Source: Asterochloris sp. CNOR1
Lineage: Eukaryota > Chlorophyta > Trebouxiophyceae > Trebouxiales > Trebouxiaceae
Length of the DNA: 64,000 nucleotides
NCBI GenBank assembly: GCA_963969365.1
Contig: OZ017748.1
Span: 1,798,001 to 1,862,000, forward strand
Direction: 5' to 3'
In this document: piece after piece, positions 1-64,000 of the stretch
Position numbering within the stretch: the first letter of the stretch is position 1
Layout: every line of letters begins with the position of its first letter
Position numbers and translations under genes: made by a program
The notes under the pieces: generated by a model
The model's input: only the letters and a program-made list of their open reading frames with translations
Databases searched by the model: none
What the model was told of the DNA's origin: nothing

Positions 1-3000
1 TGCCAGAGATTATGAGGCGCATGCTGCGGGCTTACTGTGGCACCCTGACTGTGGAGCTGAGCCATGTCAACTCCCTGTGAGTGGTGCGCTGCTCACGTGC
101 TGCTTCATATCAGGATGCAACTCTGAGACCCTGCCTTGCTTTGTCATGCAGTTTCTGCACCATCAATAAGGTGGCTCAATCTGACTTCAGGGCCACACGG
201 CAGCTGACCACTGAGACTTCACATGAATGTGTGTGTGTTTCCAACCCTTGATCCTTGTACCTCTTGCACCTCTGCTCATCCACAAAACCCCCGCCTGCAG
301 TCAATATCTGTGTTGGCTGGGTCAAGGATGCTGCTCTGCCATTCAGCAAACATCAACAGCTGCACCTTGCTCACGCGAAATGCTTTGCTGCAGTCAGCAG
401 CGCACTTGGCTGGCCAGGCAGGTGGAGGAGCGGGCTTCTCTGCAGCCTGATGAGCAAGCCAACATCCTGCACTCCTTGGTGAACACAGATGCGCTTGAGG
501 CCTTCCTGGCAAAGCACTTTCCCCGGTCCAAGGTGACCTCCTGCAGTGTAAGACTGCCCTGCAGAATCTTTGCCAGCAGTCAAACCACCCTCGACGAGGG
601 CGTCTGTGGTCGTACATGCTTGTTCAGCAATCCCTTGTCAAGGCACCCAGACAGCACGACAGATGTGTGCGCCCGCCTGCACCTGTTACAAGAGGCTGCC
701 AGGCAGCACGCCTGCACCCTGGTCAAGGCACAGCAGGGCCAGGCACCAGCACGTCCAGCACAGCTCTCCTGCCTGCAGCGCTTCGGAGTGGAGGGCTCAG
801 AGGCCCTGCTGCCAGGGCTGCAGGAGGTGGTGCAGCGCTGCGCTCAGCATGGCATCAAGCGCATCGAAGTGGGCATGCCCCACCGGGGGCGCCTGAATGT
901 GCTGTGCAACCTGCTGCACAAGCCGCCTGCAGCCCTTTTTCAGGTGACCACTGCCCCTTGGTTGCCCAAACAAGTGCGTACACTTGCCTAAAAAGCAGTG
1001 CTTGGCCAGTGCAATGTGGGCACAGCCTATGGTTGGCCTCGACATTCGGTGGAATTGGACGCACAAGCGGCACGCAGCCTCATTCCTGCTGTGTGCAGGC
1101 TGCTGACAGCCATGCAACCACCTGCCTGAACAGTGCAGAGGGCTTATGACCAGCCAGCGGCCTCTTGCTCTCAAGAGGATAGCGCACAGGAGAGGATCAA
1201 ATGTTGCATTCAATGCTGCCCTCCAGGGCAGCCTCCTCTTTACTAAGTCCTGCCCTTCAGGCAAGATGCCCGGCCAAGACAGGACATCACCAGCTGTACT
1301 CATCTTGCGAAAGCAACAGGGGGTTGTTACTGGGATGCTGGGAAGATGGTGGTTCTGGAATTCTCGAGACCCATGCAGCAGCTGGAAAGCTCAGACTGGC
1401 TCTCTCTGGCTTCTTTGCAGCCCCCTGCTGAGCAGCACACCTGCTCACAGTCCTCAATGTCATGCTGGATGGGCCCATATGCTCTGCTGCAGGAAATGGA
1501 GGGCGGCCAGAGCGCCTTCCATGTCGGGGATGTGAAGTACCACCAGGGTCAGAGTGCAAGCATCCAGGTCCCGCCCCCTCCAGTGAGCTCCTGCTTGGTG
1601 CCAGTTTCAGAACTGCTGTCAGGAGTGCAGGTGTGGCTCTCTACTTGATTGCCACACGCCAGGCGGCCTTGACGGCTGAAGGGCTGTCCCCCTCAAACTC
1701 GTAGACATGTCTGGCAGCTTCAAGCTGCGTGGCAGCACCCTGGTGCACATGCTGCATGCGTGCTTAGTGCAGTCGATGAAGTGCCCTGACCCGCTGTTGA
1801 CTGCATAGCTGTCAGCTCAGCAATTCCTCACACCACCCTTCAGGCTGCCCCTCGGGCCTGCTCTGTTCCCCCACAGGCCCCTCATACCCTGCAGGGGAAG
1901 GTGGTTTCACAGTCAAAACCCCCCGTTGATGCCTGCAAGAGAAGTCTGCTGCTCGTGGTCTGGTTGGTCCTCTGCACCATGCAGGAGAACACCACTACTG
2001 CACGCAGCTCAGAAACCCACATGCCCTGCAGGAGGGAATGCTCCACGTTGCTCAGTCCCCAACGAGCCCTGCCAGGTGGCACTATTGTGCGACTGCAAGC
2101 ACACCCTGAGAGCCCGTTCATACCCTGCAGGGCAAGGCTGCGCCGCATCTTCCGCAGCCCCCACCTGCATTCCAGCTCACAGCCTCGCCTGTCCTGCAGG
2201 GTGAGACTAGTCCACGTGAGGTCCGGGTGTCCATTGCGCCCAACCCCAGCCACCTGGAAGCCGTTGATCCGGTTGTTCTGGGAATGGTGCGGGCAGAGCA
2301 GAGCCGCATCCAGGACACAAGCGCTAGCCAGATCATGGGCCTCCTGATTCATGGAGATGCAGCCTTTGCCGGGCTGGGAATTGTGGCAGAGTGCCTGCAG
2401 ATGGCCAACGCACCAGGTCGGCTGCAGATTCTCCAAGGCGCACACACCCGCACTCATATCAAAAGATGAAGCGAACACGTGCACATTCGCCCAACAGCGC
2501 AAGTGTAGGGCACATGCACGGTTAGCGATCCAGGCAGACAAGCTGCCAAGCAGGCTGCCCAGGCTGCATGATGCTGTCTTGCTGATCCATATACAGTGGC
2601 CCGCGATACCTCAGTCTGCAGGCTGTGGAAGCCACGCAAGCTGAGGCTGAGGCATGCCTGTCTCCTCCAGGGCAGTGCTTGGGGTTGATGGTGCTGCTGC
2701 CCTGGGTCAGTTGCGCTGCTGCTGCATGCTCAAAATACTGTTCGTCCCCATTCGGCGGGCCAGTGAAGCCAGGCCTGCTGATAGTGCTTGCATCCTGCCT
2801 CACAGGGTACAGGGTCGGGGGCACCATCCACGTGGTGATCAACAACCAGATCGGCTTCACCACTGTCCCTACAGACGCCCGCACCTCCCGGCACTGCACC
2901 GATGTGGTCAAGGTGTGTGGCCCAGGCATGCAGGGCCCCAGCAGCAGCAGGAGCAGCCCTGTGTGTTACAACACACCCCTGACCAGCAAATGACAGTGCC

Positions 3001-6000
3001 TGACTTGCTTTGCCTGCCAAGCATCCAGTATCTGCATAAACGCCCAGGTCTGCAGCCTGTACACACATAAAGGATGCTCCACTGCTAGCTGCCCCAGATA
3101 TCAGTCAGATTGGCATGGATGGTCAGGTATCCCTTGAGATGCCTTTCAGCAGCCAATGCATGTGCTCCCTGATGCAGACAGTGGGGGTGCCTGTCCTCCA
3201 CGCCAATGCAGATGACCCAGAGGCAGTGGTGCACGCCTGCCGCATCGCGTCTGACTGGCGGGCATGCTTCAAGACAGACATTGTGGTGGACATCATGGGA
3301 TACAGGAGGTGAGCAGCATCTGATGGGCTGCCTCTTTGGGGCTCAAGGAGCCCAATTCAGCATGCATACAGGATTGTGGATCCTGTTGGACACAAGGTTC
3401 GGAGCAGGCTGCTGTCCTGCCTGTACAAGACGGCTTTCATGCTCACCCATGTGGTGAGTGCCAGCTTGCCCAGTTTGGAAGGTGTGATTGTCCATCACAC
3501 AAGGCCTTCCAGCACAGCTCCAAGCAGACATGCATGGAGCCAGGAACCGCCCTGGTTCTTTCCAGTGCTTCCCAGCAGCTGCTGTCTGTGATCGGCTACA
3601 CCACAACATGCGCGCTGGCAGCCTGCAGGCCCACCCAGCTTGTGCTTCCTGCTGCATCAGAGTCCTCAGACCTACTGGCTGCATGCAGGAATGGCCACAA
3701 TGAGCTCGAGGACCCCAGCGTCACCCTGCCTCTGACCTACCAGGCAGTGGCTACCCACCCTCCCGTGGCCCAGCTGTACAGCAGCCACCTCCTGCAGCAG
3801 GGGGTGGTTACTGAGGCTGATGTCAAAGGGTGGCAGGTAGTCGCCCTGAGCCCTTGCTGATGAGTTGCCAGTCTGCTCCAAGCTGAGTCTTTCTGGTCCT
3901 GGCATCTCATGAGAAGTGGGGCCAAAAGGGCTTCTTATGCGATGTCTGACAGCATGATAAAGGTGGCCTGTCTCCTGCAGGCAGAGGCTGACCAGCAGCT
4001 GGACAATGCCTTTCAAGCGTTCAAGCAGGGGAAGTTCAAGGAGACTCCGCAAAATTGGCTGCTCAATTCATGGCAGGGGGATGCACTTCAGGTGACGGCC
4101 GGCGTCTCATACGGCTGGACAGTGTTGCGGCTGCATTTATCTGCTTGGCAGCTGCCCCTCTAGCTTGTATCTCTCACCTACAGCAGAAAGTCATCTTTGT
4201 GTATGTGCAGTCAAGCTCAATGTCCAGTATTTATGTATGGCTTCTGCAGGCTGTTGTGGGATCGGCAGCAAATTTGCAGGAGCCTACAGGGCTGCCAGTG
4301 GAGACCCTGCAGGTAACGCGTCCACCAATCTTGTACGAGCTCCGGCTTGGGGCTTCATTCAACGTTTGCTTTGCACCAAACACTGGGATGTTGACTGCTG
4401 GAACAACAACTGATCGATGGCAGCAACACCTGTCCATTCACGTGTTTCACTGCTGTTTGCAGTGGGTAGGCAGGTCCATCTGCAAGGTGCCGAGGGGTTT
4501 TGCAACACACAAGACCATTGACAGTCTTCTGGAGGGGCGTAGGTGAGCACCAGTCAGTGGGGCGGGCCGGTCTTGTATAGCTGGCCAGTACATAGTCAGC
4601 TGTCCACGAAGGGCATTGCGCAAAGCTTGCTGGCCGTGCAGCCAGCCGTCCTCATCAATTGCCAAGCCAGCAAGCAAGACATCGCGGCTTGATTGGTGGC
4701 TGCTCAGACAGCTGCACCCGCAGGCGCCTGTGTGCAGGGAGCAAGGCTGGCAGCGCGCTGTGTTGGCCTGTAGCATCTGATGCTAAACCCAGCTGCTGCA
4801 CCCTGCAGGCAGTCGAGCTGCTAGGCAGCAGGGCTGCCGTGGGAGAGCAGTTCCTCCTACATGCCGAGTACAGCTGATGCACCCTGCAGATAGATGGTCA
4901 ACGCCAGGCAGTGATGTGGCTTAGTGTAGAGTATCGCTTGCCTCCTGGCCGGTGCCCCATGTAGCTGCTGCACCCTGCAGGCAGATGATCAGGACGCCCG
5001 GCAGCAGGGTCGACTTTGCGATGGCAGAGGCCCTGGCCTTTGGCTGCCTCGCCCTGAGCCAGGATGCTCACCCACCCAACAGCCTGGGCCCCCTGGAGAG
5101 CTCTGCAGACCCTGCCAGTGGCCTCAACAGGGGTCAGTATGCAGTGCGGCTGTCAGGGCAAGACTCGGAGCGAGGCACCTTTGCTCAACGTCACAGCGTG
5201 CTCTATGACCAGACTGATGGAAAGCGGTAAGCGATGTGGCTACTGTGCCTGCGGTCAAGCCGAATGCATTCATCAGGCAGCCAAGAGACTGCTCAGAAGT
5301 CATCTGCGCCGTGACATCGCAGGCCGTGCTGGCGCAGCATGCTGTGCGACCAGAGCAGCGGCAAGTGGCATGGCTCCATGCCTGCATCATCTGCTTGGGG
5401 CAGCTCTTGACCGTCCCCTGCGCCAGACAGGTGCTTTGACATGTGAGCACACAAGACGTGTGCGCACACCGCTGTTGCACCTCTCCACATGTGCTGCAGA
5501 CTCGTGCTGCTCAACAGCATCTTTGGAGGGGCAGCAAGGCAGCAGGAGCCTGTGGAGGTCTGGAACAGCCCCCTAAATGAGGCTGCAGTGCTTGGCTTTG
5601 AGTATGGACACAGCCTTGGCTCTCGTGGTACCGCACTGACCTGCTGGGAGGCTCAGTTCGGAGATTTTGCCAACAATGCCCAGGCAAGTGCTGCTGGTCT
5701 GACCATCTGCCAGTGTGCGGCATGGGCGACTCAGATGCCCTGCACTGATTGACTGCTGCCAGCGGCACTGTTTCACCCTGCAGGTCATGATTGACGTCAT
5801 GGTGGCTGCCGGGGAGGAGAGGTGGGGTCAGCAGAGCGGGCTGGTCATGCTTCTGCCGCATGGCTATGATGGGCAGGTGTGGAGGCTTCTTTGCAGCAAG
5901 TCCCTCAGGCTCAGCTGCATGCCTGTCATGGGTTAAGATTGATGTGGCCCGCAACTTGCACTCACAAGCATGGTATCTCTGGCAGTGCTGGCCTGTGGCT

Positions 6001-9161: not shown

Positions 9162-9415
9162 AGTCAAAGAGCACCCAGCAGTCATGCAGGTGCTGGAAGG
9201 GTACTCACATGCGGATGTGCGGGCACAGTATCCCCAAGCAGCACCCCTCGCAGCATGCAGGTCCTGTGGTGCTATTGCTGCATTGTTCACAGGCAACTGG
9301 AACACCTGTGGCTGCTCGACTCAAGCAAATACTCTGTTCAGTTGATCTCTTGAGGGCACTCTTGCATTTTCTGGTCGTCAGTCATGGAGACTCGAAGGAC
9401 AATGTACTGGCATTT

Positions 9416-18400: not shown

Positions 18401-19905
18401 TAGCGGTGCAACACCAGGCTGCGCCGCATCAGCCCTGTCTGCATCTTGACCCTGCAGTTTGGCATTGGTGAAAGCAGTCATGTGAGCTGCCATTGCACCA
18501 GCCTCCTCAGCATGGCGGACCTAGAGCACCTGGAGAGGGACCACCCACATGTGAGCCTCCAAACAGTCAAAGCAGCGGCAGCTGCACTGCCAACCCAAGG
18601 TGGCCTGAACAGCCTACCATGGCAGGCGCTACCATCATGAGAGCTTGGGCTGGTGCTGAATATGACGACTATCAGATGAGCCTGTGCTGGCCCACAGGGC
18701 GCCAGTCTTGTGCCAGGCAGCAGTCTACTCACAGGCAGCTCAAGGGCCCTGCCTAAGCCAGCATGGAGGCTTTCTAGCCCAGCCGGTGAGCATGCAAAGG
18801 TCAAGCTCTCTGCAAAGGGTGTGCAGCATGCTGTGTGCTGCCAGGCAGCGCCCTGCCAGGGAGAGCTGCAGGCTCCTGCTCCGCAAAGGCGCGAGGCGAC
18901 CTCACCTTGTCGTCAAAGGTGCAGTTGGTGTGCAGGCGCTCTGAGCGGACAATCATGGGAATCCAGGCGCAATCCTGGAGGCCCTCGGGCGTCCTCATGG
19001 CAGTGCACCCATCCTCGGGGTCAGCAATCTGCACACAGCGGGGCAGCGCCAAGTGTGCCTGCTGTTGCCATTGAACATGTTAATCACAGAAGCCCTTGGG
19101 CGGCCTTGTGGTTGGACCCACAGCCTCAGGATCGGCAATGTGTGCACAGGGGCAGCGCCCAGGGTGCCTGCTGTCAAGGTGACCCTTGTATATCACAGGG
19201 CAGTGGACTGCTCCGCGGCATTGCAGCTGTCCTCAGAGTCTACAATCTGTGCACAGCGGCAGCGGTCTGCCTGATGCAATGCAAGTGCGTCCTGGCCTCG
19301 AGTGTAGCGACAGGTGACCTTGGCACAGAGCAGCCTTCCTTTACGGTCGGCAGGGCTCAGCATGGTGAGAACACCCTGGCATTACTGGCCAGAAGGACAG
19401 CACGCAGTAAAAGCCCAGCATGTCTCCTGCCACACGTGCGGCCTGTTGTCGGCCAGGCCTGTGATCTCTGCCCTCAGGTTGGTGCCACATCACAGCCAGC
19501 ACCATGTTCCAAAAGCGTCTGCAGGTAGTTGCTCCAACACAATGAGGCGGATGAGACGGGCTTAGACTCACTACTAACACGCCCTCCACCCCTTCAGGCG
19601 GCAGACGGGGCCCGAAATCTGCAGGCATGACATGGAGCCTGTCAACATGCCACAGTGGAGGCCCAAGCTTGACTGTGAGGTTCAACACTTCTGACTGACC
19701 AGCTGGGAGGTCTTGCATGGGATCAAAGGTGACATTGCCGGTCTGCAGGCAGCAGGGAGGCTTGCTCAGCGCATGCACATGCAGGAATGCGCCATGTCAG
19801 CGCCAAGCTAGGCAACAAGCTAAGCAAGCCTGCCTTGAGGATGATGTTGCCACTGGCACATGAGCACATCAAGCCCAGGCACAAAGCCTCCACAACCGCC
19901 CTCAT
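15411..19905 (-). CDS. PA-TM-RING family E3 ubiquitin ligase (RING-H2)
   Basis: Membrane-anchored ubiquitin ligase of the RNF13/GRAIL/plant RMR class, working in endomembranes or as a vacuolar sorting receptor. Twelve exons in phase: 19834-19905, 19572-19742, 18906-19058, 18163-18354, 17874-17965, 17540-17682, 17126-17228, 16834-16882, 16566-16658, 16363-16475, 15936-16176, 15411-15728; 579 aa. Residues 1-19 form a signal peptide (MRAVVEALCLGLMCS); 20-195 a PA domain (GNIILKTGNVTF, ADFGPRLPPEGVEGVLV, AEQAGAMAAIIYDD, IPAVFVTQKTG); about 200-226 a transmembrane helix (LWISMLMSALAGMLAVSVVG); about 301-343 a complete C3H2C3 RING (CAVC, CRHRFHMEC, IDQWL, CPVC); then a Ser/Pro-rich tail ending SSAL. 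Order and spacing match the family. The first intron has a GC donor (AAG|GCAGGC). Exon edges of the tail are the least certain. Confidence 0.93.
18325..18535 (-). repeat. Acceptor echo before the PA-domain exon 18163-18354
   Basis: The exon start and acceptor (plus strand GCTGCCATTGCACCGGCCTG then CTCAGCATGGCGAACCTGCAG, about 18321-18360) recur in the upstream intron at about 18486-18530 as GCTGCCATTGCACCAGCCTC then CTCAGCATGGCGGACCTAGAG. The copy has lost its CAG acceptor and is not part of the open coding path. Confidence 0.8.
19020..19280 (-). repeat. Regularly spaced acceptor echoes before exon 18906-19058
   Basis: Three related blocks about 107-110 bp apart. The real exon start (19020-19065) contains CAATCTGCACACAGCGGGGC; copies at about 19131-19180 (CAATGTGTGCACAGGGGCAG) and about 19238-19280 (CAATCTGTGCACAGCGGCAG) are increasingly diverged. 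All three continue into GCCTGCTG or GTCTGCCTG remnants of the acceptor. Confidence 0.75.
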
Positions 19906-37900: not shown

Positions 37901-39778
37901 CACCTGTGGGGCCCTGCTGAGGCAGTCTTCTGAGCGAACCCTGCCTCAAACCCCTGCAGGAGATGGTGCCCAACCTGCTGAGCCGCGTCCAGGAGGTCTT
38001 TCCCCTGGAGCAGATCTGGACCCCACCTGACATGGAAGTTGTGCAGTGGACCTGGCCCTCCATAGATGAGCTGGTGGACGTGCACAAGAAACGAGTCATG
38101 TTCCTCAGCGGTGTCGACTACGGTCGCGAGATGAACGGTGTCGTCTTCAGCAAGTGAGCATTGAGCGGACTAGCAGCACCATGAAGACAGCGCTCTGCGG
38201 GGCCACAGCAAGTCCAGGCAGCCTGGCTGGGGTCTGTATCTGTGTGCCATCACGTTGCAGCAAGAAGACTGTCTGTGCTGCGCTGTTGCCCCGACCTGTG
38301 CCCTATGCGACCAAACAGCACATGTGCCAAACTGTGGAGTGCTAACCACTTCTTTTGTCTGCCTGAATTAAGCCTGCTGCTGTCCACAGGGGCGCTCAGA
38401 TCTGTGACTGGGCTGAACCTGGATTGAAGCTGTGGGGCCCAGGGTGTCAGGTCAACTGGGGAGGGGGCAGCCATACAGGCACCATGCAAGGCCAGATCCT
38501 GCGTGTGATCAGCTGTGAGCTGACCTACGGACCCATGAACTGCGACTTTGCCTGGGGCCTGACAAATGAGTGAGTTCAAAGATATACACTGCTGCTTTGC
38601 CTGGGGCCCGCTGAGGCAGGGCTTGCCATGGGAGTGACCAACCAGTCGTCTGGAACATCCTGCACCCCCTTTGATGCCAGCTTGAGGCGTCGCTGGGCTG
38701 ATGCATGCAAAGGTTCCTGAAGGCACCGCCTGCAAAAGATACTTTGCTGTAGGGGAGCTGGCTCCTCCTGTGCTGCTGCCTTTGGCCACAGGTCAGTGCC
38801 TCTGCTGACCACTCCAGGCAATACCAATGCCTGCAGCCCCATTGATGTGCAGTAGCACTGCAGGCTGGGCCTCATGGTGCTCTTATAAGCGGCATCTGCT
38901 TGCCAGCCGCTGCTGTATGATACCACTGCCAGACGAGTCGTGCTGCGCCTTGATCACCTCTTCTTGTTTCATCCCCGCCTCATGTTGCTGCAGGCCTCTA
39001 CTCGATGAGGCGACCCTACCTGATATATCGCTCTGCGCCTTGAACATGCCATCCCCTGACCTGCTGACTCCATCCAAGGTGGCTGCCACCATCTGGAGCT
39101 GGGCGCCTGGGCACCCCATGAAGCCCTACGCAGCGCAGTGGTGGCTGCACAGTGCAGTCTTGAGGCTGCGGGATGCGGTTAAGGGCGCCTGGCGGGGCCA
39201 GGAGACTTTGGTGAGTCGAGCTGCACTTGGAGTGCAGTTGTGGCTGAGACACAGGCCTGAATGTGTTGCCCACACTCTGGCCCAGGCACCCTTTGTCTGC
39301 CGCCCTTGGGCAGCTATAAGGGTAGGGTTTCCTGACAGTCAATCAAAGGATGACATGCCAAAGCTGACGTCCCTGATCCCCTGCTGTGCAGCCCCAATGC
39401 ACTGCCATTAGTGCTGCTGATGGGCGGTGGCGGGCTCGCGACTGCAAGGCGTCGCTGCCTACAGCCTGCAGAGCCCAGGATGGCTCCTCGTGGCAGCTTG
39501 GTGCTGGCAGCAGGGGCAAGTGCCCTGCTGGCTTTGCACATGAGGCGCCCCACCATGCCAAAGAGAACACCATGCTGCAGAGTGCAGTGCAGCAGAGCCA
39601 GGCAGAGGAGGCATGGCTTCCAATACAAGGTCAGCAGCCGCTGCCATTGATGTCTGACAATGCTTCTGACACCAAGCAGATTGACCAACATTTGTACCCT
39701 GCTGCAGGGCCAAAGTGGCAAATCCCATCCATGGCCATGCTGCAAGGCAATGGCTCCTCTTCCCATCACCTTTTGTAA
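34995..39778 (+). CDS. Secreted PI-PLC X-domain-containing phosphodiesterase
   Basis: Member of the plant/algal PLC-like phosphodiesterase family (TIM-barrel X domain without the Y, PH and C2 domains). Exons: 34995-35287, 35431-35518, 35762-35896, 36128-36232, 36473-36573, 37009-37180, 37960-38153, 38390-38569, 38994-39210, 39392-39778; 623 aa, or 597 aa if an in-frame 78-nt intron (39630-39707) is also removed. Residues 1-18 form a signal peptide (LFACVLLAAWCC). The X domain begins LLGTHNSGITLADGYGNLDP (catalytic His145), then QLGVRVLELDTHWF, RIAHCGG (second His, about 214), REFVVMFFDDQ, KKRVMFLSGVDYG. The C-terminal portion (CTAISAADGRWRARDC, SLPTACRAQDGSSW) is the Trp/Cys-containing module seen after the barrel in this family. 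Substrate is unknown; the secretory route is inferred. TGTAA at 39828-39832 fits a poly(A) signal. Confidence 0.88.
37671..38025 (+). repeat. Three-step decay series of an exon start (PI-PLC exon 37960-38153)
   Basis: The functional acceptor/exon start at 37955-38022 (GGTGCCCAACCTGCTGAGCC, GTCCAGGAGGT, CCCCTGGAGCA) is copied at 37852-37917 with GGTGCCCAACCTGCTGAGCC intact, GTGCAGGAGGT and TCTGGAGCACC. A third, more decayed copy lies at 37671-37740 (GCAGGAGGACGGTGTTCAAG, CTGCCGAGCCAGGACGTATC). The middle copy still reads VVPNLLSRVQEVIPLEHLWG in frame but is followed by a stop, so it looks like a dead or alternative exon. Confidence 0.85.
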
Positions 39779-39964: not shown

Positions 39965-39999
39965 ACAGGCTCAGTATGCAGTGCCACGGGCATGCTGAT

Positions 40000-42900
40000 C
40001 TATTTTGCCATTTCAAGGAAACAGCTCTGCCCAGGAGGGCAGTTAGCTCTGATGGAATCACACAGCTCCACAAAGCTGTCGCGCCTAGAGCACAGGGTCT
40101 GGCAGTCAGGCTCGCCGGCCAGCACTGCCACAGCATCAGCGAGGCCCACCATGTCCATTGCACGAGGGTATGCCAGGACCTGTGCCTCGGCAACCTGTAG
40201 CAGCACATGTTTGACCTGAGCACAGGTTGGGTGCAAGACCTCTACCCCAAGTGCAGCAGTGGCACTCTGAAGACATGATGGTTCCAGGGTGGACCTACAG
40301 ACCCTTCATGGCAACGGACCAGGAACTTTGAACAGCGGCACATGTCAACAAATGCCCACCTGCATGGGGGTGAGGCAACGACAGTACATGTCGCCCTTGA
40401 AGTTTTTCCATTCCGCCTGCACAACAAACAGAGCAGGAGCGCAGGTGAGCTTGATGTCTAGGGCTGGGCAGATGAGTGAGCCAAGGATCAAGGGTTTGGC
40501 AAGGCCGACAGCAGGGCTGAGATTTCACACATCTCTCTCAAGGTTTGACTTGGGACGTATGCACGATCCTGCAAGCAATACCTCTTACCATTTCCTGTGT
40601 TAACAACTCCTGCATGAGCTGCGACGCCTTGGCAGCAGCCACAAAGCTCAGGGCAGCGTCCTCGGCACTCTGTGTCTGCTCCTGCGCCACCTGCAGCAGA
40701 TGAGAATCACTAGGCATTGAGCGACCAGGAGCAACCAGCAGGAGTCAGCATTGGATATAGCAGCACAGAGCATTCAGGGGGAGCAACCAGGAGGACTGAT
40801 CAGGGGTACTGAGCAAACAGAAGGAGCCACCAGGGGGAAGCCTCAGCAATCAGTACAGCACCAGGGTGGTCGCCATTTCCGAGCAGGCAGTGTGAGACTG
40901 CGCCCTGCTGCAACTCGCGTGGCAGGCAGATGCAGGGGTGCAGACTGGAAGGCTCTGTAGCAGGGTGGGCAAGGAAGCCTGGGGCGCACCTGATTCAGCA
41001 GGCTGCAGATGCGCCTCCGCTCACTCAGCATCGGGTTGACCGCCCTCAGGTACCGCCGCCGCGCTGCTAGTATCATGGCTCGCTGCTCCTGGGTGAAATG
41101 CAGGTGGGCCTGCAGAATGCAACGCGCAGGCTGAGCGGCACAGCCTCTTTAGGGGTGCAGCTCTGCTGATGCTGAGGTAACTCTTGTGGCAGCCCACAAA
41201 CAATGTGCCCATGCATGAGGCAGGTCTTCAGGGATACCGCCATGGGCTGCTGGCAGCGCCCCTGCCAACCAGCACGGCGGTATCTGTTGAAGCTGGCAGC
41301 ATGGGAAAGTGATGCGGCATGTGTGAACCGGGGTGTGGACAGCAGGCATTAAGAGGCACACCACCCCACTGGGTCAGAGCTTCAGAGGTTGCAGGACAGC
41401 ACAATGGCTGGGTAAGTGATCTGGGACTGTTGAAACTGCCAATATATAGCTTCCAGCATGCAGGGAGCCACATACCTGGCCAGTGCGGTCGCAGTTCAGC
41501 GCCACAGCATGCAGGCAGGCTCATGCGGGGGGAGCAATCAGCTGCGCAGCCGACCTCTTGCAAAGCAAGAGGCACAGGATGGCTCACCGCCAGCTGGGTC
41601 AAGGGCGCGCTGTCTTTGGCACCCTCCTCCAGCTTTCCATACAGCAGCTGCCTCATCTTGATGCTGTTGCTGTCATAGGTTGCAGCTGCGGCCCACACAG
41701 CAAACTGGGTCACTGTGCCCTCGATCTCCCGGCCCGCAGGGGAGCGCTCCTGTCCATTGGCCTCAGCAAGGAGCTCCGCGAAGCGATTGACGAAGGCCTG
41801 AGGGACACGGGGTGCACTTCTGACCAGAGGGTTCTCTTGTGCTTCTGGCGTTGGATCTTGCTAGGTTTTCAGGAAAATCCTGGTGTTGGAGGCCTGGTGC
41901 TGGAGGCCTGTTTGTTCGCAAGGCTGGCAAGAAGATCTGGGATGCATCTGCAGGCCCTGGAGATGGCGCCCTCCAAATGGGGGCCCTCACATAGTAGGCC
42001 TGCTTGCGCTATTGCAGGGACCAAGCAAGATTGGCAGCAATCTTTTCCAAGGTAGTCCTTGTCATCTCTCACCAGCTTGGTCCTGGTGACCCTAGCACAT
42101 GACAGCCTCAGCAAGCGCTCGTACCTTATAGGTCTGCTTGTGCTCCTCAATACTCATGTCAGCCAGCTCCCCCAGAGTCCACAGCTGGGGCTTGGGCCCC
42201 ATGACTGTCACAGTGATGAAGGCATTCGGGTTCCAGCCCATGCCTGGGGAAAACGCCACCATCTCCCTGCCACTGTTCAAAGGCGCCTTGGGCGGCTGTG
42301 GCAACAAGGATCAGACTCTCTCAGTGTGGCCTTAGCAGGTGTTTGGTGGGTGCAGTGAGTGCAGGTGGGCGGCCTCAAGTGTTGTCCAGATGCGCTACAC
42401 GCAGCATGCTGGTGCGCCCAGGGTCAGCAGACTGGCCTGGTATGCAGCAGGGCAGACAGGGCGGGCTCTCAGGCTGCAGGCGCACCAGGCAGTAACACTA
42501 CAGACATGGGCCAGCAGAGCACTGTGCTGATGTAGCTGCCACAGTCCCCCTGGGGCTCCCAGCAGGGATGGAGCTGCTGGGTGTCAAGCGACCCTGTGCG
42601 CTGTGCTGCAGCAGCGCCGGCCCACCTCTGGATTCTTGGAGCCCCTGAGCACGAGGGCCTTCTCCAGGAGGGCAGTGCGGGAGGTCAGAGTTTCGTTCAG
42701 GCGCTGCGCCTCCTGCAGCTGCTGCTGCAGGGCCTGCATCTCCTGCTGCTGCTCCTGCTGCTTCACCTGAGCAGGCACAGGTTTGGAGCTCTGAGAAAAT
42801 CCCTGTCATGCTGTAGTGCCAGCAAGCAAGAACAGCCTGCAACTCCTGCACGTCCTGTTGCTGCATGCAAGCCAGCACAGCGATGTACTTCATGTTGTGC

Positions 42901-46705: not shown

Positions 46706-49700
46706 CTATCTCTGGCGTGTGGCGCGCTTTTCCTTTTCTGCAACCAGCTGCTCGAGCGTCACAGGCACCCAGCGGTCTCCCAGGCGCGCCCTGATGCTGT
46801 TACTAGCATTACCCATTATGATGCTGACAGACCCAAAGGCATACACCTGCAGGCAGGATAGCAACTGAGCAGCAGCTGTCTGCACAGCATTACATGGCTC
46901 AAGAGTGGGCCTCTGTCAGTGGGGCCACGAGGCCTTGAATGCCAAGCTGCATGCATGTCATCACCTGCAGGCCCTCGTGTGTCTGCCCAGCCTTGGGCAG
47001 CAGCTGCACATCGCTCTCTGCAGCAAAGGCCTCCACCAGCTGGCGCAACGTCATGGCAGCTGCTGCAGCTTCCCCATCAGCCACAAACTTGGCCGCGGTA
47101 GGTGCCATTGGCGCAGCAGCGGGGCCCATGTGGGCTGCTGAGTTGGCATGGGCAGCCTCGGTGGCTTCATCTATGGCGGCCCAGCGTTGCCCCGCAGGGA
47201 GAGTGGAGGACTCTGCTGCGGCATTCATGAGGTTGAGGGCGGTGGTCAGCTGGGCGCGAATGCGCTGCTGATCGATGATGTCCGGCGGCAACAGACTCTG
47301 CAGCACACAGGGGCAAGGCATTGTGCTCAGAGAATGTCCACAATGTAGGCCACACAATGCACTCAGGGCCCCTTGCAGCAGTGGAGACGCTCTCTCCAAC
47401 ACTGGACTGACAATTGAAGACACCAGGATGGCGATAGCAGCCTACGCATGGTTGCCGAAAGTTACTTTGTTGAGGTAATGCAAGCTTACCTTCCAGCCCA
47501 GGTACCAGGCGGTGACCTCATCAAAATTGGGCGTGCTGGACAACCAGTGGCGCAGCACCTGCAGGGCAGCCATCGCACAGAAGTTGTATCATCTTGCAAA
47601 GGCTGAGAGACAGTCTCCTCATCTGGAAGGCACACACAAGCCCCGTTGATGATGCATGCCCAAAGACGCACAACCTCGAGACCCCTCACAGACGGTGTGT
47701 CTGATGGTAGTTGACTTGCAGGAATGCTGCAGAGGTCTGCTGGACAGCCAGCTGAAGCATGCATTCACTCACCTGGTGCCACTTGGGGAAGAAACGGAAC
47801 TCCAGTAGGTTAACCATGTGATGGGCGGGCATGACAGGGTGCCAGGCCAGAACCCAGTTGAAAGGGTCCAAATCCTGCTGAAGGGGGTTGATGTCCAGGG
47901 CATCCTGGAGGGCCCACGCCAGCTTGGGCACAATGCTGCGCAGCAGCAGAAGGTCCCAGTCCTTGGAGTCAAACACCTGCAGGGCAAGGGGATGCAGGGG
48001 TTGGAGTGCAGTGCGAGAGAGCGTGTACCACACGGGGTGGGTAGGGTGCCAGTCCAGAGCTGTAAAGGAGGTTGAGAAAGGCACTGGAGTCAAGGGAAGG
48101 CGCATGGCTGCGGGGTCGCAGAGCAGATCGGCAAGCCAGGAGAGACCTGCAGTGGCTGGCTGGTGGCAGCTTTTGTCATGGACATGTGTGCAGGCCTGGC
48201 AGGAAGAGGGCCACAGGCAGCAGAGTGGCAGCCACAACAGCCAGCCCTGCATGAGGAGCGCCTGCTGCTGCTAACATCTGCTGCTGGAGTCAAATGCACA
48301 GGCAAATTCCAATGACGCTGGGACTGTGAGGAGCCAAGGCAGTCGCAGGTGTCACAGCTGCTGACAGTGCAACAAGCAGAGTCACCCAGGCCCCACCTGG
48401 TGCCAGGGCGTGAGCAGCGCCAGCGCAGACTGGTCGCTGGGGTGCCACTGCTGCAGCGCAGTAGTTAGCTTCTGGCGGATGCCTGGGTACAGGTCCTCCA
48501 TGGCGCCGCCGACCCAGAGCAGCCAGGGATGCAGCCAGGCGTGCAGGGGCACCGTCTCAGTGCGAGGCTCCCAGGCGGCCACAGCCCGAGTCAGCTGCAG
48601 GGCAGGGCAGCAATGCTTGGCGCCCAGTGCAGCCAACCCCTCACTGGTCACAGAGTGTGGGGCTGTGGGGCATTGCAGGGACTGTTTCTGTCATCGGTCG
48701 GCTGCATGGCACAATGACAGGAAAGTACAGTGCTTCACGTATGCACTCCCTGTGTAACGCAGCAGTGAAGAGCCAAGTCTTATGAGCATGTATGTTCACC
48801 TTGGGAAGGACGAGGGTGTCCAATATGTGGCGCTGCAGCGCAGGCGGCCACACGCTCTCCCACTGCTCTACAAGCTGCACCATGGGCTCCGCGTTGCGGG
48901 GCTCCCACTCATTGGTGACCGCGGACTGGATGGCAGGCAGCAGCGCGCCACACAACAGGGCCAGGAAGGGGTCGACGCCGCTGCTGCCCAGGTCCTGCAG
49001 AGATGGGAGGCGGTCTGTAGCCAGCAGGCATGACAGGCTGCAGCAAGCCGCCAGGAGGTGGTCGGCATCACTGCTGCCCCGATCTGAGAGGCAAGGCAAA
49101 CACATTGACACCAGAGACAGCTGCATGACGAGAGCCGACAGCGCTGCTGGAATGCAGTCAGCAGTGCAGTCCAGCTGGGCATGCGCAGGAGAGGGAGGCA
49201 GCACAGCAGGCATACATGCACAAAAGGCGGCTCTGCAGATGCACAGCTCATGTGTGGTGCTCTGCAAGGAGTTTACCTGGAAAATGGCGTTCTTGCTGGC
49301 CTCCGACTCCAGAATGCCCCGCCAGCCAGCAGCTTCTGCCAGGCCTCGCCCCGGCTCCAGCAGGGGTTGCCATCCCGCCATGAGCTGCTTGAAGAAGGGC
49401 AGCGCCTGCAGGCACAGAAAGCTGTGAGAGCTAAGCAAGACAGGCAGCGGCAAGTGCCTCAGCCATGTGATGCAGGGTACGGTACACCCACCAGTGCCAA
49501 TGCCCATTGGCAGCCCAAGGTCGCCAGCTGTCTACTTGGTAATTTGGGCATCTGAGCACAGGGCTAGTCAGCAGCTGTGCCCCGCACCCAGCCATCCCAT
49601 GCTGAGGGTGCAGCTGGAGTGACATGGAGTTGCTGAGGACCTCTGCAAGGCCCCATGTGACCTGTGCAAGGGCATCTGCCCAAACTGTGTGGCCTGTGCC

Positions 49701-52700
49701 AGGGCAGCCGCACCCAGCGGGGAGATCTGCGCGATCCTAACATCCCAATAGTTGCATCTCACCTGCGAGAGAGCAGCAGCCGGGAGGTTGTAGATTAAAA
49801 ACTCCTCACGATGCTGCGCCTGCAGAGCGGCGTAGGTCTCCCGCAGCTCTGGCAGCGACATGCCTGGCCGACTTTGTATCAGCTGCACCTGCAAGCGTGA
49901 GGAGTAGCCATCAGCGAGGACGCACACAGCCCTGCGCAGAGCAGCCGACGAGTGGGTGTTGATCGGCCTGCACACAGCACGTTGCAAGGTAGCATCTGCT
50001 GCACAGGAACGCCCTCCAGAAGCCAAACAAAGCAGCTGTGCAGTGTAGGTCAGGGCAGAGCACAATCATATTACTGCTGCTTTGGGCTTGCTAGCGTTGC
50101 CTGCTGAAACACAACATCTCTTGGATGCTGCGAAAGCACCAGTTTGCTTGCCAGGACCACACAGGAACCAGCACAGGCCCTCAGGGCACCAACCTGGCGC
50201 AACACAGCCTGCACCCGCTCAGTTGCTGCAGCAGCGGCCTCGACCTCCCCATGAAGGCGCTTCTCCTCCCGCGCAAGCACCACAGCTGTGTCCTGCATGC
50301 AACAGAAACATGATCATTGAGTGGTTGGCCAAAGCTGAGCGGGCGTGCTGCGCCGGTTGTCCCCCTGCTTACTGGCATAGAGCTGGGAGAATCCGAGTTC
50401 TAGCCTTGAGTTGACTGTCCATTGGGCATGGCACATTCGGCAGGGGTCATCATGCCAGGCACTGGCCTGTACCAAAAGCTTAGCGACAGCTGCTAATTGA
50501 CCCGTGTGACGTAGACAAGGTGCTGGACATGGTGATGGCTTGTTGTCAACGTCGAGATGCCAGACGATACATGGTAGGCAGGCATCCTGACGGATGTTGC
50601 AAGTCACTGCAGTGCTGACAGGCACTCAGTGCAGCCCTGCTACTCAATGGCCAACGGTGCAACCTGGGGCACAAAGCTAGTTGCTCACCTGCTCGTGGCG
50701 CAGCCGCGCATCCAGGCGACGGATGTCTGCCTCAGCCACATCCACCAGCAGGCGCATGTTGTGCTGCAGCTCAGGCATGGGGGTCAGGTCCCCGCCCACA
50801 TCCTCCTCCTGAACCTGCAGCAATGGTGCGGGCTTGCTGTGAGCATCTGCAGCAGGCTTGGTTGTGGCTGTGTGTGGACCCCTAGCAGCAGCACTTGCAT
50901 TTAGTCACGCATGGCAGCAGGTAAGTTGCTTGAATGTCTGCAACAGAGCTGTTGCTCGCTCAGTCTTAATTCCAGGTTTTGTGGCCTTATGTGGTGCAGC
51001 AGCACAGCGGCCAAGGCCATAGCCCCAGCGCCGGCCAGATGCCCTCACACAGACCAGATGAACGTGTATGACACGCATTATCTCGTCTGATGCTCCAGGT
51101 TAGTGACCAGGCAAGCAGGCTCGCCCCACACAGCCTTGAGGCACCATTGACAGCAGCAAGGCTCAGCGCAAGTCTCTGCAGGCTCACATTGAGGTGCTCC
51201 AGGTTGGTGACCAGGCGAGCCTGCTTGCCCCGCATGTCAATGATGGTCTGCAGGGGAGCCGCCGGCTGCCCTGGCTCCCGGTCAGCTGTCTCCTGCAGCA
51301 CCTCCTGCATCGTGCGGAAGTCAGGGCGGGGCCCAGCGGCATGCCTCTTCTTCCAGGCTGCCTTGGGAGCGGGGGGCCTGCCCTCCTGCAGCGGTCATAA
51401 CGTGTTGAGCTGCTGGGAGAGGATGGGGGTGCTGAGTGCCCCCACTGGCAGGTCACTAAGGCGATACCTGGGAGAGGGGCTGCAGACCTGCCCCGCTGCA
51501 GCAAATGTGAGTGGCTTGAGGAGCATGAGCTTCAGCAGCCGCACAGCTGACTCCGCAGCAGTACTTTGGCACGGCCACAAGGGGCATGCTGTAGTGCCTC
51601 CTGCCTATAGTGTCAGGCAAGCTGGACTCTCGCCGCTGCTGCGCCTGGCCATTGTGCTGCCGATGGCTGAAGCACGGGTTACACAGAGCTTCAGGTCTGC
51701 TTTGTGCAGGGGTGCTCACCGATGCTGCGCCTGGCCGCTGTGCTGCCGGCGCATCAGGTGCAGGCTTGGCCTCATCCTGGTCCCCATGCCCGAGGCCACG
51801 GCCCCTGGGGCGCTGCTTGGCCTCAATGGGCCGCGCTATACCCTGCGCCTTGGCTCCCAAGCCCATGCCCTCCACAAATCTGCAACAAGTCATGAGATGA
51901 AGTCAAGCTCTTCACCAGGCACACACAACACACTGGACAACTCATTGTCATGAACAACAACTCAAGCTAACCAGAAGGTTCAAGCTGTGAGCTGGCGGAC
52001 AGAAGCACTTATCTTTGGGCACTACTTGGAGCTCCCCACTGAGCTCTACAAGCAAAGGCTGGCAGAAGGGCTGCTTGAATGCACATGCCATAGGTATTTG
52101 GAGCCTGTTGAAATAAACACAGTGTGCAGACTGACCCCATCTTCTGCAGCATCTTCATGCCAAAGCCCTTGGTATGGGCCTCAAACTTGCCGACGTCACC
52201 GGTGGAGCCTGCTGTGCGCGCTTTGCTGCGAGCCAGGTCGCGCCGACGAGCCTCTTCCTCCCTCTGCTTGCGCTGGGCTGCAGACTGCATGATCCTGCAT
52301 CATCACTTGATTAGATCAGTTTTGCATGCTCAGAGAATGGGCTCGACCATGCAGGAGGATGCTGCCATATGAGCCCCCAGGCCAAGCTGCAAAGGTGGTG
52401 GATGTGACTGCAAATAGGTGATTTGCAAGCTTCGCAGTTGGTGGTACTGAAACGCAGCAAGCTGTTGGTTGAGCACCCACATTGCAGCAATGTGGGGTGG
52501 GCTGATGAGACCAAGCATGACCCCATGCAGCCGGCACCCAAGAGACCGGCACCCGCAGCCAGCCAAAGCAAGCTGTGATGACTGTCAGGTGCATCCTTAG
52601 GGGTCTCAGCTGGATTTTTTTTTCCTATCAGCAACCTGCTCTGCTGGAGGATGAGCTGGGCTAGATTTTGAATGTTTCCTCCTCAGCCTACAGCAGGTAC

Positions 52701-54379
52701 GTCCTGCCGCCTTGTGTTGGGGTACCAAAACCCAGGTGAGAGTTGAAGCAAGTCAAGCTTGGCAAAGTGCACCATGCCCCTACCTCTGGCCAAAGGATGT
52801 GGGCATCAAGTTTGTAGTATCCTCCTCCTCTACACCTGTGTCCTCTGTCTTCACAAAAGAGGTGGCACCCAGGCCTGCAGGGGCATAAGAGGTGAGCAGG
52901 CAGCAAAGATATGTGCGGCAACAGAAGAAAACGAGCACGCCGCAAGCAGACATGCAGAAAGTGATTTTTGAGCAGGCACAATTCAAGCAGGCCCTCTGGG
53001 TTTGCAGTTAAGGCAGGCAAATCTGCCGCGATAAAGCTGCCAGCAGGCAGCAAGTAGCTTGTGTACAGAGGACTGTGAGCACAGCAGCAGCTGACTGCAA
53101 GTGCAGTCATTGTGGTGCTTGTTGGCCGACTTCCACATGCAGCAGCTCTCACAACCAGTGCAGGAAAGGTAGCAAGATCCTTCAGAGGTTGACTTTGCTG
53201 GCCCTGCTGTAGGAGAGATGCGACATGCCATCAACAGGCACTCGTGGCAGAGCCTCCTGGTCCCCACCTGCAGTGCCCCCCGCGCCCAGGCCGGCCGTAG
53301 TCCCCAGGCCAGCCGTGCTCCCAAGGCCAGCCGTGACTCCCAGCCCTGCTGTGGCTCCAAGTCCTGCCGTTGGACCCAGTGGCGCCTCCTGCTTGATCTC
53401 CATCTTCACCTCTGCCGCTGGTGCGGGCTTGTCTGAAGACCCCTTGGCCAGGCCGCTGCTCTGAAACGCCACAGGCCTGCAGACCATGTGCTTGCAGTTG
53501 GGCAGCATGCATATATTGCTCATTGTGCAGAGACGACTGCTCTCCAGAGCATCCATATGCAAGCGCTGCTCTCGCCTCACCGGCTGCTCTGACAACCCTG
53601 CAGTTGGCAGCTGCAAATCCCTGTGTGCAGTCCTGCAGTCCCTGCCAATGCACAGCTGATTGATCTGCTGTGGAACAGCTTCCTCCCATTTGCAGCTGCA
53701 CCTTTCAAATTGCAGATGCCTCACTGTGGCCACCGCCGCTCCAGTCAGTCAAGACCCAACCTAGTGGCTCGAGCTGCTTGTGGGCCAAGATGTGAGGCAG
53801 CACCAAGGACATCGCAGCCTCCTCAGGTCAGCCTCCTCCCATATGCAATTGCAGGGGCATGTTTGCACTGTTCACTGTGGCTGGCCCTTGCTGCTGCCTG
53901 CAGTCAGCAGGTGCACGTGCGCCACCATGCAGAACAGGCTGCTGCACAGTGGACCTGCTATAGTCTGCCTCCTCCCGCTTGCGTTTGCGGCGCGGGCCCC
54001 CGTCGCCATCCGAGTCGCTGTCAGCAAAGACACCATAAATGCGGTCCTCCTTGGTTTGTGCAGCCTTCTGGCGCTTGCCCCTGTGGAGAATGGAGAGGTC
54101 AGGCCTACCCTGATGGCAGGCAGCGGTGAGCACAGGTGACAGCAGCACTTGCATTGGGCACTTCTGTAAGAGGCAATGTCCTTTCTGGGCAGTTGTGCAG
54201 GCATGCGCGGACAATGACGCTGGCATGGCATACAGGTCCCCTGTGGCCAGCATGCACAGGGACAGCTGGTGGGGCTTTGCTCTGCAGCAGCACCTGTGGA
54301 CATACTCGCCCCCCATCCACTCCCCGCCCTCAAAGTCATTGTCCATGTCAAAGCGTTCATACTGCTGCTCCTCGTCCAT
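46706..54379 (-). CDS. TFIP11: TFIP11/NTR1 (STIP) G-patch spliceosome-disassembly factor
   Basis: Nuclear cofactor that, with the DHX15/Prp43 helicase, drives disassembly of the intron-lariat spliceosome. Seventeen exons in phase: 54294-54379, 53955-54080, 53268-53476, 52784-52874, 52136-52294, 51720-51879, 51188-51385, 50689-50814, 50194-50292, 49763-49888, 49277-49405, 48800-48994, 48397-48594, 47773-47976, 47490-47558, 46965-47297, 46706-46846; 882 aa, close to the family length. N-terminal TIP_N acidic region ([40 protein letters not shown]); a TAGLG repeat at about 104-135; G-patch at about 213-255 ([27 protein letters not shown]); then the GCFC-like helical region ([74 protein letters not shown]) and the C-terminus [15 protein letters not shown]. 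Convergent with its left neighbour, divergent from B14.5a. Confidence 0.96.
48965..49095 (-). repeat. Acceptor echo next to TFIP11 exon 48800-48994
   Basis: The plus-strand exon start (GTCGACGCCGCTGCTGCCCA then GGTCCTGCAG, 48971-48999) is echoed in the upstream intron at about 49061-49088 (GTCGGCATCACTGCTGCCCC then GATCTGAGAG). The acceptor of the copy is lost. Confidence 0.65.
51085..51245 (-). repeat. Donor echo next to TFIP11 exon 51188-51385
   Basis: The real exon end (plus strand TGCTCCAGGTTGGTGACCAG then GCGAGCCTGCTTGCCCCGCA, 51195-51235) recurs within the following intron at about 51090-51130 as TGCTCCAGGTTAGTGACCAG then GCAAGCAGGCTCGCCCCACA. Confidence 0.85.
51625..51765 (-). repeat. 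Donor echo next to TFIP11 exon 51720-51879
   Basis: The exon end (plus strand GATGCTGCGCCTGGCCGCTG then TGCTGCCGGCGCATCAGG, 51721-51759) is copied in the intron at about 51634-51672 (CGCTGCTGCGCCTGGCCATT then GTGCTGCCGATGGCTGA). Confidence 0.8.
53281..53376 (-). repeat. Coding 18-bp minisatellite (TAGLG repeat) in TFIP11
   Basis: About five to six tandem 18-bp units encode [X]-T-A-G-L-G hexapeptides (X = P, A, V, S, T) and end in a Gly-rich stretch, just before the donor at 53267. The repeat lies in the disordered segment between the TIP_N region and the G-patch. Confidence 0.9.
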
Positions 54380-56020: not shown

Positions 56021-56157
56021 AGCTCTACCGGCCGGACGTGCGAATTCAAGCTGATGTTTTCTGCCAGGCACTGGCGCAATGCCAGCTGCTACAATTGAGC
56101 AACATCGTGTGTGTGTTCCATGTGGTACAAGCCAGTCCTGCCTGCCCTAAGAATGAC

Positions 56158-57275: not shown

Positions 57276-57410
57276 TGCCCCAATGACTTAAAGGCCGCCC
57301 AACTCATTGTGCGTTGTTTGTGCATGCCATCACGAATGTTTGACCACCACAACTGAGTTGAACAGCCAGCTCAACCACAGCTTGCTCAAAGTGCTTGACA
57401 GTGATTTGGA

Positions 57411-57415
57411 TTACA
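57411..57415 (-). terminator. TGTAA poly(A) signal, LHCII gene
   Basis: TGTAA on the minus strand about 140 nt downstream of the LHCII stop (57555-57557), within the range of algal 3' UTRs. Confidence 0.5.
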
Positions 57416-57554
57416 GTTGGCCAAGTTCTCATTGAAGCAAAAGCAGCATCAATAATGCTGGTGAGATGTTCAAAATTTGGCAGGCTGGGAAAGTCTCTTC
57501 TCTTACTTTCCTGGCTGCAGGAGGCATACGACAGTGTGGTCAGCACCAGTTGTG

Positions 57555-59638: not shown

Positions 59639-59846
59639 GGCGGCTCACTGTTGCAAGCGTATGGAAAAAAGATTGGGAGGTGGCCAAACTTGCTCTCAGG
59701 TCACCAGAATAAATGTTTGACCAACTGGTGTGGGAGGTTTTTTGAATGTGCTCAGTGCTGTGGTCTCTGATCAGTGCTGCTCAGAACCAATACAGAAGGC
59801 ATGTGTTAGGAAGCTGTCAGAGAATGGGGTCCAGGGTCAGTCACTT
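59639..59846 (-). promoter_or_regulatory. LHCII promoter / 3' flank of upstream gene
   Basis: 208 bp between the stop of the upstream same-strand gene and the LHCII ATG. It contains an AT-rich stretch (plus strand GAATAAATGTTTGACC at about 59707) that on the coding strand gives GGTCAAACATTTATTC; this could be part of a TATA region, but no precise start site can be assigned. Confidence 0.4.
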
Positions 59847-62800: not shown

Positions 62801-63759
62801 TGGCCTGAGCACCGATGCTGAATCCCCAGTTGACACACTGCTGCTGCCTGCCGCGCTGCCAGCAGCAGCAGCGCCCTGCTGCAGTCCATTGGCCATTGGC
62901 GTCACTGCTACAGGCACCTCAGCCGATGCCTGCAGAGCCCGCGAGACAGCCTGCTTCTGCCGCTGCTGCACAGAGCGTGCCGCCTGCTGCTGCTGTTGCC
63001 AGGGTGCTTGCGCAGCCAGGTTGGCAGCACTGCTGCCAGCACCAGAAGCAGCCAGAGACTCCTGTCGCTGCTGGTGCTGGTCCTCAGCGGTGTCCTGCCA
63101 GTTGCTGCTGTGCACCGATACTCTGAGACCTTCGAACTGGCCTGGCCCCAACCTGGCATGCGGCTGCTCCAGGCGAGGCTCACCGCCATTTGCCAGGCCC
63201 ATCGATCCCCTCCCTGCACATCATGACTCTACCCTCAGCATGCAATGCTAGCCGGGTCCAAGGCTCCTGACAAATGCCATGCAGAAGGCATGTGCATTGT
63301 GTGCCACCAAGCCAGCCCATTGCTCGGCCAACCTGAGGAGTGCGGCAGAAGCCCCCATGCTTGCAGCTCCTGCTCTGCCCCAAGCTGGAGCCCTGGACCT
63401 GTGTCATGCGACCCAGGTTGCAGCCCAGCAAGCTCACCGGAGCGCCTGCTCTCCAGGGACCTGCTTGCAGCAGCAGCTCGGCGTCCTGCATCCCCAGGCT
63501 CTGGCCCGGCCTGCAGCGCCCGCTCAGCAGCCAGCACGGCCGCGTCATATCTGCTGTGGAAGGCGTCTCCATCAGAAGATGCAAAGGGCTGGGAGGCCAG
63601 CTCGGGAGGCTCTGCAGCCTGAGCCTGCGCCGCCAGCCTCTGCAGGTGCTCTGGCTTGCGCGCCGGCTGGGCTGGATGGGCGGCCTCTGCGCCAGCCTGC
63701 AAGTGCGGGCCCTGCTGCTGCCCGCAGCCTTGGCGCTGCTGCTCCCCTGGTGCTCCTGC

Positions 63760-63790
<31 letters not shown>

Positions 63791-64000
63791 AACAGGAGTG
63801 CAGCGCGCTGCTGCTGGGCAGCATGCTGCTGCCCATGTAGCTGCAGGACATGGTGTTGAATCTGCTGCAGGTAAAGGAGCTGCTGAGGCGTCATACTGGC
63901 GCTGCCTGGGGGAAACATTCCAGGGAACAGGTGGGACGGGACATCCTGCAAGCAACCAGAGACCAGTCAGCACGCCCAGGACCTAGCATGGGAGACGCCC
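59847..64000 (-). CDS. Gln/Ser/Pro-rich low-complexity protein with a terminal EDFPAL motif (partial)
   Basis: Runs off the right edge, so the N-terminus is missing. Likely exons: about 63440-63947 (DVPSHLFPGMFPPGSASMTP, QLLYLQQIQHHVLQLHGQQH, then a poly-Gln run), about 62660-63182 (MEDSRRGPFMRGLHSLRRG), about 62140-62413 (LMYGLPPGLMSGASPAGDLH), about 61480-61860 (Gln-rich plus DLEVLSQHLQTARICQQNKA helix), about 61165-61249, and a last exon 59847-60951 of more than 1 kb. Near the end is NFQLSAEDFPALAG, similar in form to the [NE]DFPALPG motif of CCR4-NOT subunit NOT2 and to FPALG motifs of other RNA-related proteins. No folded domain is recognisable. The composition suggests an RNA-granule or transcription-related scaffold, as inference only. 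Confidence 0.6.
63757..63789 (-). repeat. (CAG)n coding repeat, poly-Gln tract
   Basis: CTGCTG repeated about ten times on the plus strand gives a run of about nine Gln on the minus strand (VQQQQQQQQQAG), near the visible N-terminus of the Gln-rich protein. It may be length-polymorphic. Confidence 0.85.

Follow-up and report, generated by a model that had tools for sequence, protein, structure and literature searches.

The introns of this locus raise the question of whether splice junctions leave serial, decaying copies of themselves in the adjoining intron and, if so, whether such copies reflect the growth of introns, their birth or a role in splicing. The stretch of DNA under analysis, referred to here as the window, comprises 64,000 nucleotides (positions 1,798,001-1,862,000 of contig C3) of a genome of 56.38 Mb in 21 contigs. 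Adding 24 samples of 10 kb each from elsewhere in this genome (labelled L003, L008 and so on) brings the data set to 304 kb. Genes were modelled with a purpose-written two-strand gene finder, which started from six exon pieces with Pfam support and was then trained on the same 304 kb; it predicted 655 introns, with the consensus AG|GTGAG at donors and TGCAG|G at acceptors. The genes in the window include those for rubisco activase, an OGDH-type 2-oxoglutarate dehydrogenase, a protein kinase, and PLC-like, PA/RING and TFIP11-like proteins, and one further prediction is presumably a light-harvesting protein; this gene content marks the source as a green alga. A mean of 9 introns per gene is given for Asterochloris glomerata in the available part of the relevant report (PMC6652019).

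The joined models of the PA/RING, rubisco activase, kinase and GCFC (TFIP11-like) genes are backed by Pfam, the PLC acceptor at 37959/37960 is backed by homologues, and the OGDH gene was named from Pfam PF16870, located further along the gene; outside the verified genes, junctions are ab initio. The gene finder made several errors: false micro-exons were predicted, the interval 37770-37885 (part of an echo, as the copies are called below) was called an exon, and the kinase and PLC-like genes were merged, so that these two models were separated by domain content. The best named homologue of the PLC-like protein, at 52% identity, is from Coccomyxa subellipsoidea. P0040, a 167-aa protein encoded on a 1176-bp contig from another source, agrees at 97% with the window PLC-like protein across 13% of the query; environmental data may thus include this species or a very near relative. 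Whereas kinase matches on the chromosomes were mostly partial, a nearly full-length protein kinase match was located inside an uninterrupted 713-aa frame at 10167-10916 of C19, a 43-kb contig that may be organellar, foreign or a contaminant.

For each series in the window, the best local alignment of a copy with the exon edge was compared with the best obtained from 300 two-mer shuffles. The kinase gene, on the forward strand, holds two of them. The live donor edge of exon 31513-31773 (31712-31790), at a junction (31773/31774) across which the Pfam kinase profile continues when the exons are joined, recurs at 31824-31896 (lag 112) with the homologous GT kept and an identity of 0.76 over 69 aligned nt, and again at 32010-32081 (lag ~291), where identity is 0.64 to the edge and 0.70 to the first echo; the score of this second echo, 19.0, is below its shuffle maximum of 19.5. 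The live donor edge of exon 32308-32500 (32440-32520), an exon within the Pfam kinase domain, has echoes at 32549-32645 (lag 106; score 34 in one scan and 28.5, with identity 0.71, in another), at 32772-32822 (lag 299; score 21, identity 0.84; rescored 19.0, shuffle maximum 16.5) and at 32854-32923 (score 21; rescored 21.5, shuffle maximum 15.5). Of the copies of this donor, three outscore their shuffles and one does not, and the scores of 28.5, 19.0 and 21.5 do not follow the order of distance.

On the same strand, the PLC-like gene has its live acceptor edge at 37944-38030, with the exon starting at 37960. The homologue P0001 crosses this junction with the reading FFDDQKDLLAW-EMVPTLLARI, and the window exon ends in FFDDQEDLQAW. 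Its first echo (37834-37920; lag 110, score 47, identity 0.79) was partly absorbed in the falsely called exon, and is lacking in each of the seven homologues that span this region; the second lies at 37671-37740, with an identity of 0.66 and a score of 23.5 against a shuffle maximum of 16. On the reverse strand, the live acceptor edge of PA/RING exon 18906-19028 (18960-19065), from a joined model that contains the Pfam PA and RING domains, is echoed at 19082-19174 (lag 111; AG changed to AC; score 44, identity 0.74) and at 19217-19276 (lag 218; score 28, identity 0.67).

The OGDH series, on the forward strand, had to be shortened. The live acceptor edge of exon 4981-5226 (4955-5030) gives an in-frame reading of 22 residues, and intron 4868-4980 contains an echo of it at 4871-4911 (lag 91; identity 0.83 over 40 nt). 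Region 4790-4867, which the preliminary description had taken for the outermost copy and which has an identity of 0.72, is no echo; it is the preceding live acceptor with its exon, which encodes 19 residues of in-frame protein. The two consecutive live acceptors share 22 of 22 bases (4791-4812 and 4963-4984) with the decayed copy in between, and one exon's acceptor was possibly donated to the next by duplication.

In the TFIP11-like gene, which lies on the reverse strand and carries Pfam GCFC and TIP_N domains in other parts, the live donor edge of exon 51188-51385 (51195-51234) is echoed at 51091-51130 (lag 104; score 28), the donor of exon 51720-51879 at 51629-51662 (lag 86; GT changed to GC; score 26), and the acceptor of exon 48881-48994, which falls within GCFC, at 49050-49090 (lag 90; score 21). 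The predicted TFIP11-like coding sequence also contains 18-bp and 36-bp tandem repeats at 53285-53370, which encode a repeated TAGLG motif. A weaker, CTG-rich echo (42835-42880, reverse strand; scores 20 and 16) belongs to the acceptor of exon 42626-42754, in a gene that we read as bZIP-like from its predicted protein. Apart from the second kinase copy, all copies of the PLC, kinase 31773, PA/RING and OGDH series exceeded the shuffle maximum, and the similarities first described for these four were reproduced. The pattern had been claimed for at least six genes on both strands; five are clear (OGDH, PA/RING, kinase, PLC and TFIP11-like), and the bZIP-like gene would be a weaker sixth.

Across the 304 kb, the presence of exon-edge copies inside their own introns was confirmed. 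About 1 in 11 confidently predicted exon edges has a degraded copy in the adjoining intron. The strictest test was applied to 451 junctions with an exon of at least 110 nt, a coding log-odds of at least 8 and an intron of at least 90 nt: 48 matched their own intron at a score of at least 16, and 40 of these matches started within 20 nt of the junction. When each junction was paired with one unrelated intron, three matched and none was edge-anchored (0/451). Similarity to the own flank likewise surpassed that to unrelated introns, contrary to the refuting outcome named in the preliminary description: exon flanks of up to 60 nt found a match scoring at least 18 in their own intron, with its ends trimmed, at 25/401 donors and 17/394 acceptors compared with ~0.25% in other-intron controls. 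Against the reverse complement of the own intron the rates were 0.75% (donor) and 0% (acceptor). From far-lag pairs, scaled to an equal search space, ~1.5 acceptor and 1.0 donor junctions would be expected, and 27/296 and 20/289 were seen; exon interiors 60-100 nt from the junction gave 0/244 and 4/239.

An ungapped self-comparison of the window yielded 32 direct repeats scoring at least 18 at lags of 20-3000, compared with 3.1 expected from far lags. Those scoring at least 20 numbered 19, every one at a lag of 20-250 bp and nine at 100-150, and the short-lag enrichment recurs in the 24 other samples. The idea that all this is chance or compositional likeness, or an artefact of the gene finder, draws on the GC-rich and CTGCAG-rich character of the genome, on the high background at a threshold of 15 (106 copies per control pass, with 278 observed), and on the false micro-exons and the echo partly called as an exon. 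Against it, no control junction was edge-anchored while 40 real ones were, the pattern became stronger with more confident exons, and it is present at homology-supported junctions; we give this explanation practically no credence.

The anatomy of the 40 edge-anchored copies was then considered. Their median lag is 114.5 bp, with 30 of them at 69-135; the copied exon part has a median reach of 47.5 nt and makes up 0.11-0.75 of the lag (median 0.40), and intron parts go down to 20-21 nt at donors and to 32-33 nt at acceptors. Mean identity is 0.79, with 36 of the 40 at 70-90% and none at 0.95 or above. A value of ~110 bp as an exact quantum, hinted at in the window by 7 of 41 filtered pairs at 105-115, was rejected on account of the samples, in which lags are broad over 75-125. 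Two copies standing head to tail and close by, as expected of a short tandem duplication, were found both in the lag enrichment and in two complete units: L008:6918-7154, the clearest young case, has a full tandem unit over an acceptor (period 119, 2.0 copies, 88% matches), and L003:7127-7253 has one over a donor (period 65, 1.9 copies, 87%). The argument that homology ends near the junction, and hence that the copies are not tandem, was dropped after gapped alignment, in which homology often extends into the intron side. Mean homology of the intron-side flanks is 0.209 per nt compared with 0.167 in the control, and 18% of 44 pairs exceed the control's 95th percentile; since the mean is barely above the control, the tandem structure is plain in few pairs.

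Most of these duplications appear to be old. Among 135 short-lag pairs, three have an identity of at least 0.95 and 15 of at least 0.90, and two of the latter extend over 40 nt or more. Within the 304 kb, six arrays with a period of at least 40 were detected by Tandem Repeats Finder, one of which reaches 94%. At L013:545-748, a 68-bp unit stands three times in a row (94% matches), with 15% of the sequence in predicted exon and 85% in intron; it is a rare young tandem duplication, an exception to the old cohort. Some young duplications may have been collapsed in the assembly. An intergenic minisatellite with a period of 87 bp (11.4 copies, 82%) is located ~10 kb before the window, at C3:1787069-1788071 (L020:1069-2071). 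Neutral duplication at a steady rate was rejected as a poor fit: it predicts 17% of echoes at 0.95 identity or above, compared with 2% observed, and, scaled to 96 pairs, 57 intron, 21 donor and 18 acceptor pairs (34 intergenic) where 40, 29 and 27 (13) were observed.

The reading that we favour, and consider probable, is that short tandem duplications across splice junctions, mostly belonging to an old cohort, lengthened the introns, and that the surplus copies of the splice sites decayed. A unit of mostly ~65-135 bp straddling the junction would be copied head to tail, one copy would remain the working junction and the other would end up in the intron, thereby lengthening it. Head-to-tail copying is directly visible in the two youngest cases, and for the old ones we infer it. 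Judging from the flat lag modulo three and the spread of differences described below, the copy in the intron would decay without coding constraint. Its exon-derived part would be the one mainly recognisable, the live partner of that part being under selection while both intron-derived copies drift. Survivors retain intron sequence beside the live junction, no less than ~20 nt at donors and 32 nt at acceptors, presumably as the live site needs its own signals. Repeat pairs within a single exon are depleted (1 against 5.6, sd 2.6). Growth by tandem duplication, outer copies that look dead, and a nearer copy that is usually the better kept are the parts of the original proposal that held up; the suggestion that introns are born in this way did not.

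Birth by duplication of an exonic AG|GT, or tandem genomic duplication, has in its favour that the mechanism is known elsewhere, according to the available parts of PMC3443670 and PMC2891723. The surroundings of donor and acceptor should then resemble each other at a lag equal to the intron length, and they are no more alike there (0.263) than at 30 neighbouring lags (0.253-0.268); moreover, the four of 135 pairs that do have an intron-length lag all rest on a micro-exon of 3-4 nt, probably a gene-finder error. We regard this explanation as very improbable indeed: the introns grew by junction duplication, and there is no evidence of birth by that route.

Selection might instead preserve the copies for a function, as poison exons or as alternative or regulated splice sites. 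This would account for the narrow identity range of 36 of the 40, with few young pairs, and for the 11 of 29 that retain the homologous GT or AG. The lag modulo three is nevertheless flat (37/43/39), with no reading frame kept, and differences by codon position are only mildly uneven (0.23/0.18/0.26), so that functional coding echoes were rejected as unsupported and the proposal of regulated splice sites found no support. CpG sites differ most (0.45 versus 0.15-0.25), and the codon-position spread together with this raised CpG rate fits a decaying copy. In the genome samples, the observed/expected CpG ratio is 0.32 in introns, 0.39 in intergenic DNA and 0.49 in exons, a strong depletion that suggests CpG methylation. 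The dinucleotides themselves are retained no more than others: at one setting, GT or AG was kept in 11/29 copies against 132/188 in the control (p = 0.0002-0.007 over four settings), a test that is biased by a control taken from aligned blocks, and with a fairer control of exon-terminal dinucleotides the counts were 6/20 and 69/137 (p = 0.07; 0.08-0.43 at the other four settings). Ungapped extrapolation found the dinucleotide kept in 9/40. A looser set, chance matches included, showed no dinucleotide deficit (57/102 against 60.8 expected and 81/127 against 76.6). Loss of the dead splice dinucleotides is therefore only suggestive, and the idea of decoy sites goes no further than this. With the PLC copy also absent in the seven homologues covering its place, a functional role is, in our judgement, quite improbable.

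If growth by tandem duplication is accepted, it can still be asked whether the events were aimed at junctions. A process that duplicates exon edges in preference to other genic sequence is suggested by the 48 of 135 pairs with a copy crossing a junction (62/270 when counted by copies), for which random shifts give 29.3 (sd 4.6), by 56 exon-to-own-intron pairs where random shifts give 43.5 (sd 5.4), and by a peak of coverage within ~45 nt of exon edges that rises with exon confidence. Such a preference might stem, for example, from repair or template switching set off by R-loops or splicing intermediates. Part of the edge excess is expected without it, because the copy held in an exon stays recognisable longer. 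Intron-only pairs (40) are nearly as frequent as the exon-to-own-intron pairs, and some of the 14 of 48 crossing pairs that have a predicted junction in both copies are probably gene-finder errors.

A model with uniform placement, decay and selection was run at three old-cohort settings, scaled to 96 pairs; its ages and rates were chosen by hand and not fitted, and the model is sensitive to them, since other settings fit worse, old-cohort ones among them giving an echo-to-intron ratio of 3.8 to 21.6 compared with 1.4 observed. It matched the class counts, with 31-47 intron, 28-37 donor and 21-28 acceptor pairs for the observed 40, 29 and 27, a comparison that leaves out 26 of the 135 pairs (9 exon-exon, 10 small and 7 other), while it overpredicted the intergenic pairs (18-27 versus 13); one old-cohort setting also fits the identity spectrum. 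The same model gave 26-30 junction-crossing pairs instead of 48, a coverage of 0.036-0.046 at acceptor edges instead of 0.10, and of 0.025-0.044 at 40-60 nt inside exons instead of 0.010-0.011, and the 14 double-crossing pairs are impossible under it. This shortfall in junction-crossing pairs and edge concentration weakens our favoured explanation and strengthens that of a junction preference. The class counts need no aiming at junctions, yet a modest preference may exist; a process that truly favours exon edges seems to us rather unlikely. More tentatively, and on balance doubtfully, a past burst of ~115-bp junction-favoured duplications, with surplus splice sites disabled by selection against mis-splicing, may have left dead copies stepping outward as a datable record.

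Stepped decay, in which similarity falls with distance from the real exon, stands as a trend. Among adjacent copies scoring at least 18 in the window and samples, the nearer one was the better in 15 cases and the farther one in five; at the noisy threshold of 15, no distance trend was seen (29 versus 31). Within the window, the nearer copy is closer to the edge in every series save that of the 32500 donor. Repeated events at a live junction would push older copies outward, and such an order would arise because each successive duplication puts a new dead copy beside the live one.

To our knowledge, it is not well settled how introns lengthen without transposons. Should duplications across a junction be tolerated since one junction survives, introns would grow by a simple ratchet; its products would be recognisable and, because one copy is frozen in the exon, could be aged. 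Live and dead splice sites would also come in natural pairs, on which selection against decoy sites could be tested. The available parts of the literature describe short direct repeats at splice sites as well as the gain of introns by tandem duplication; among the matches listed, drawn from the open PMC library, no description of serial, stepped dead junction copies in introns as a genome trait was seen.

Among the closest known systems is tandem genomic duplication, in which, as the accessible parts of the reports have it (PMC3443670; PMC2891723; PMC4974935), a copied exonic AGGT makes a new intron with the length of the duplication. In both, a short stretch of a gene is duplicated in tandem and the unit that is copied includes splice signals; here the intron pre-existed and grew, and the copied junction looks dead. 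Duplications from the repair of staggered double-strand breaks (compare PMC4202315, on Daphnia) are similarly local and stand head to tail, with units tens to hundreds of bp long, whereas the present ones are read as an old, decayed cohort that is recognisable mainly where exon constraint holds one copy. Direct repeats of 4-30 bp around intron borders, interpreted as insertion scars in the part of PMC11782384 available, also lie near intron/exon borders, but ours are of tens of bp, with the second copy within the intron at a median lag of 114.5 bp. Duplicated or mutually exclusive exons, in the portions of PMC5224494 and PMC7969005 available, share with our copies the presence of exon-derived sequence within an intron; here the edge alone was copied, as judged on exons of at least 110 nt, and the frame is not kept. 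Finally, introners, described in the accessible part of PMC9860276 as copies of one element in many genes, have likewise been proposed as a source of intron sequence, whereas the copies reported here match their own exon, none of the 451 exon edges having an edge-anchored match in the one unrelated intron with which each was compared.
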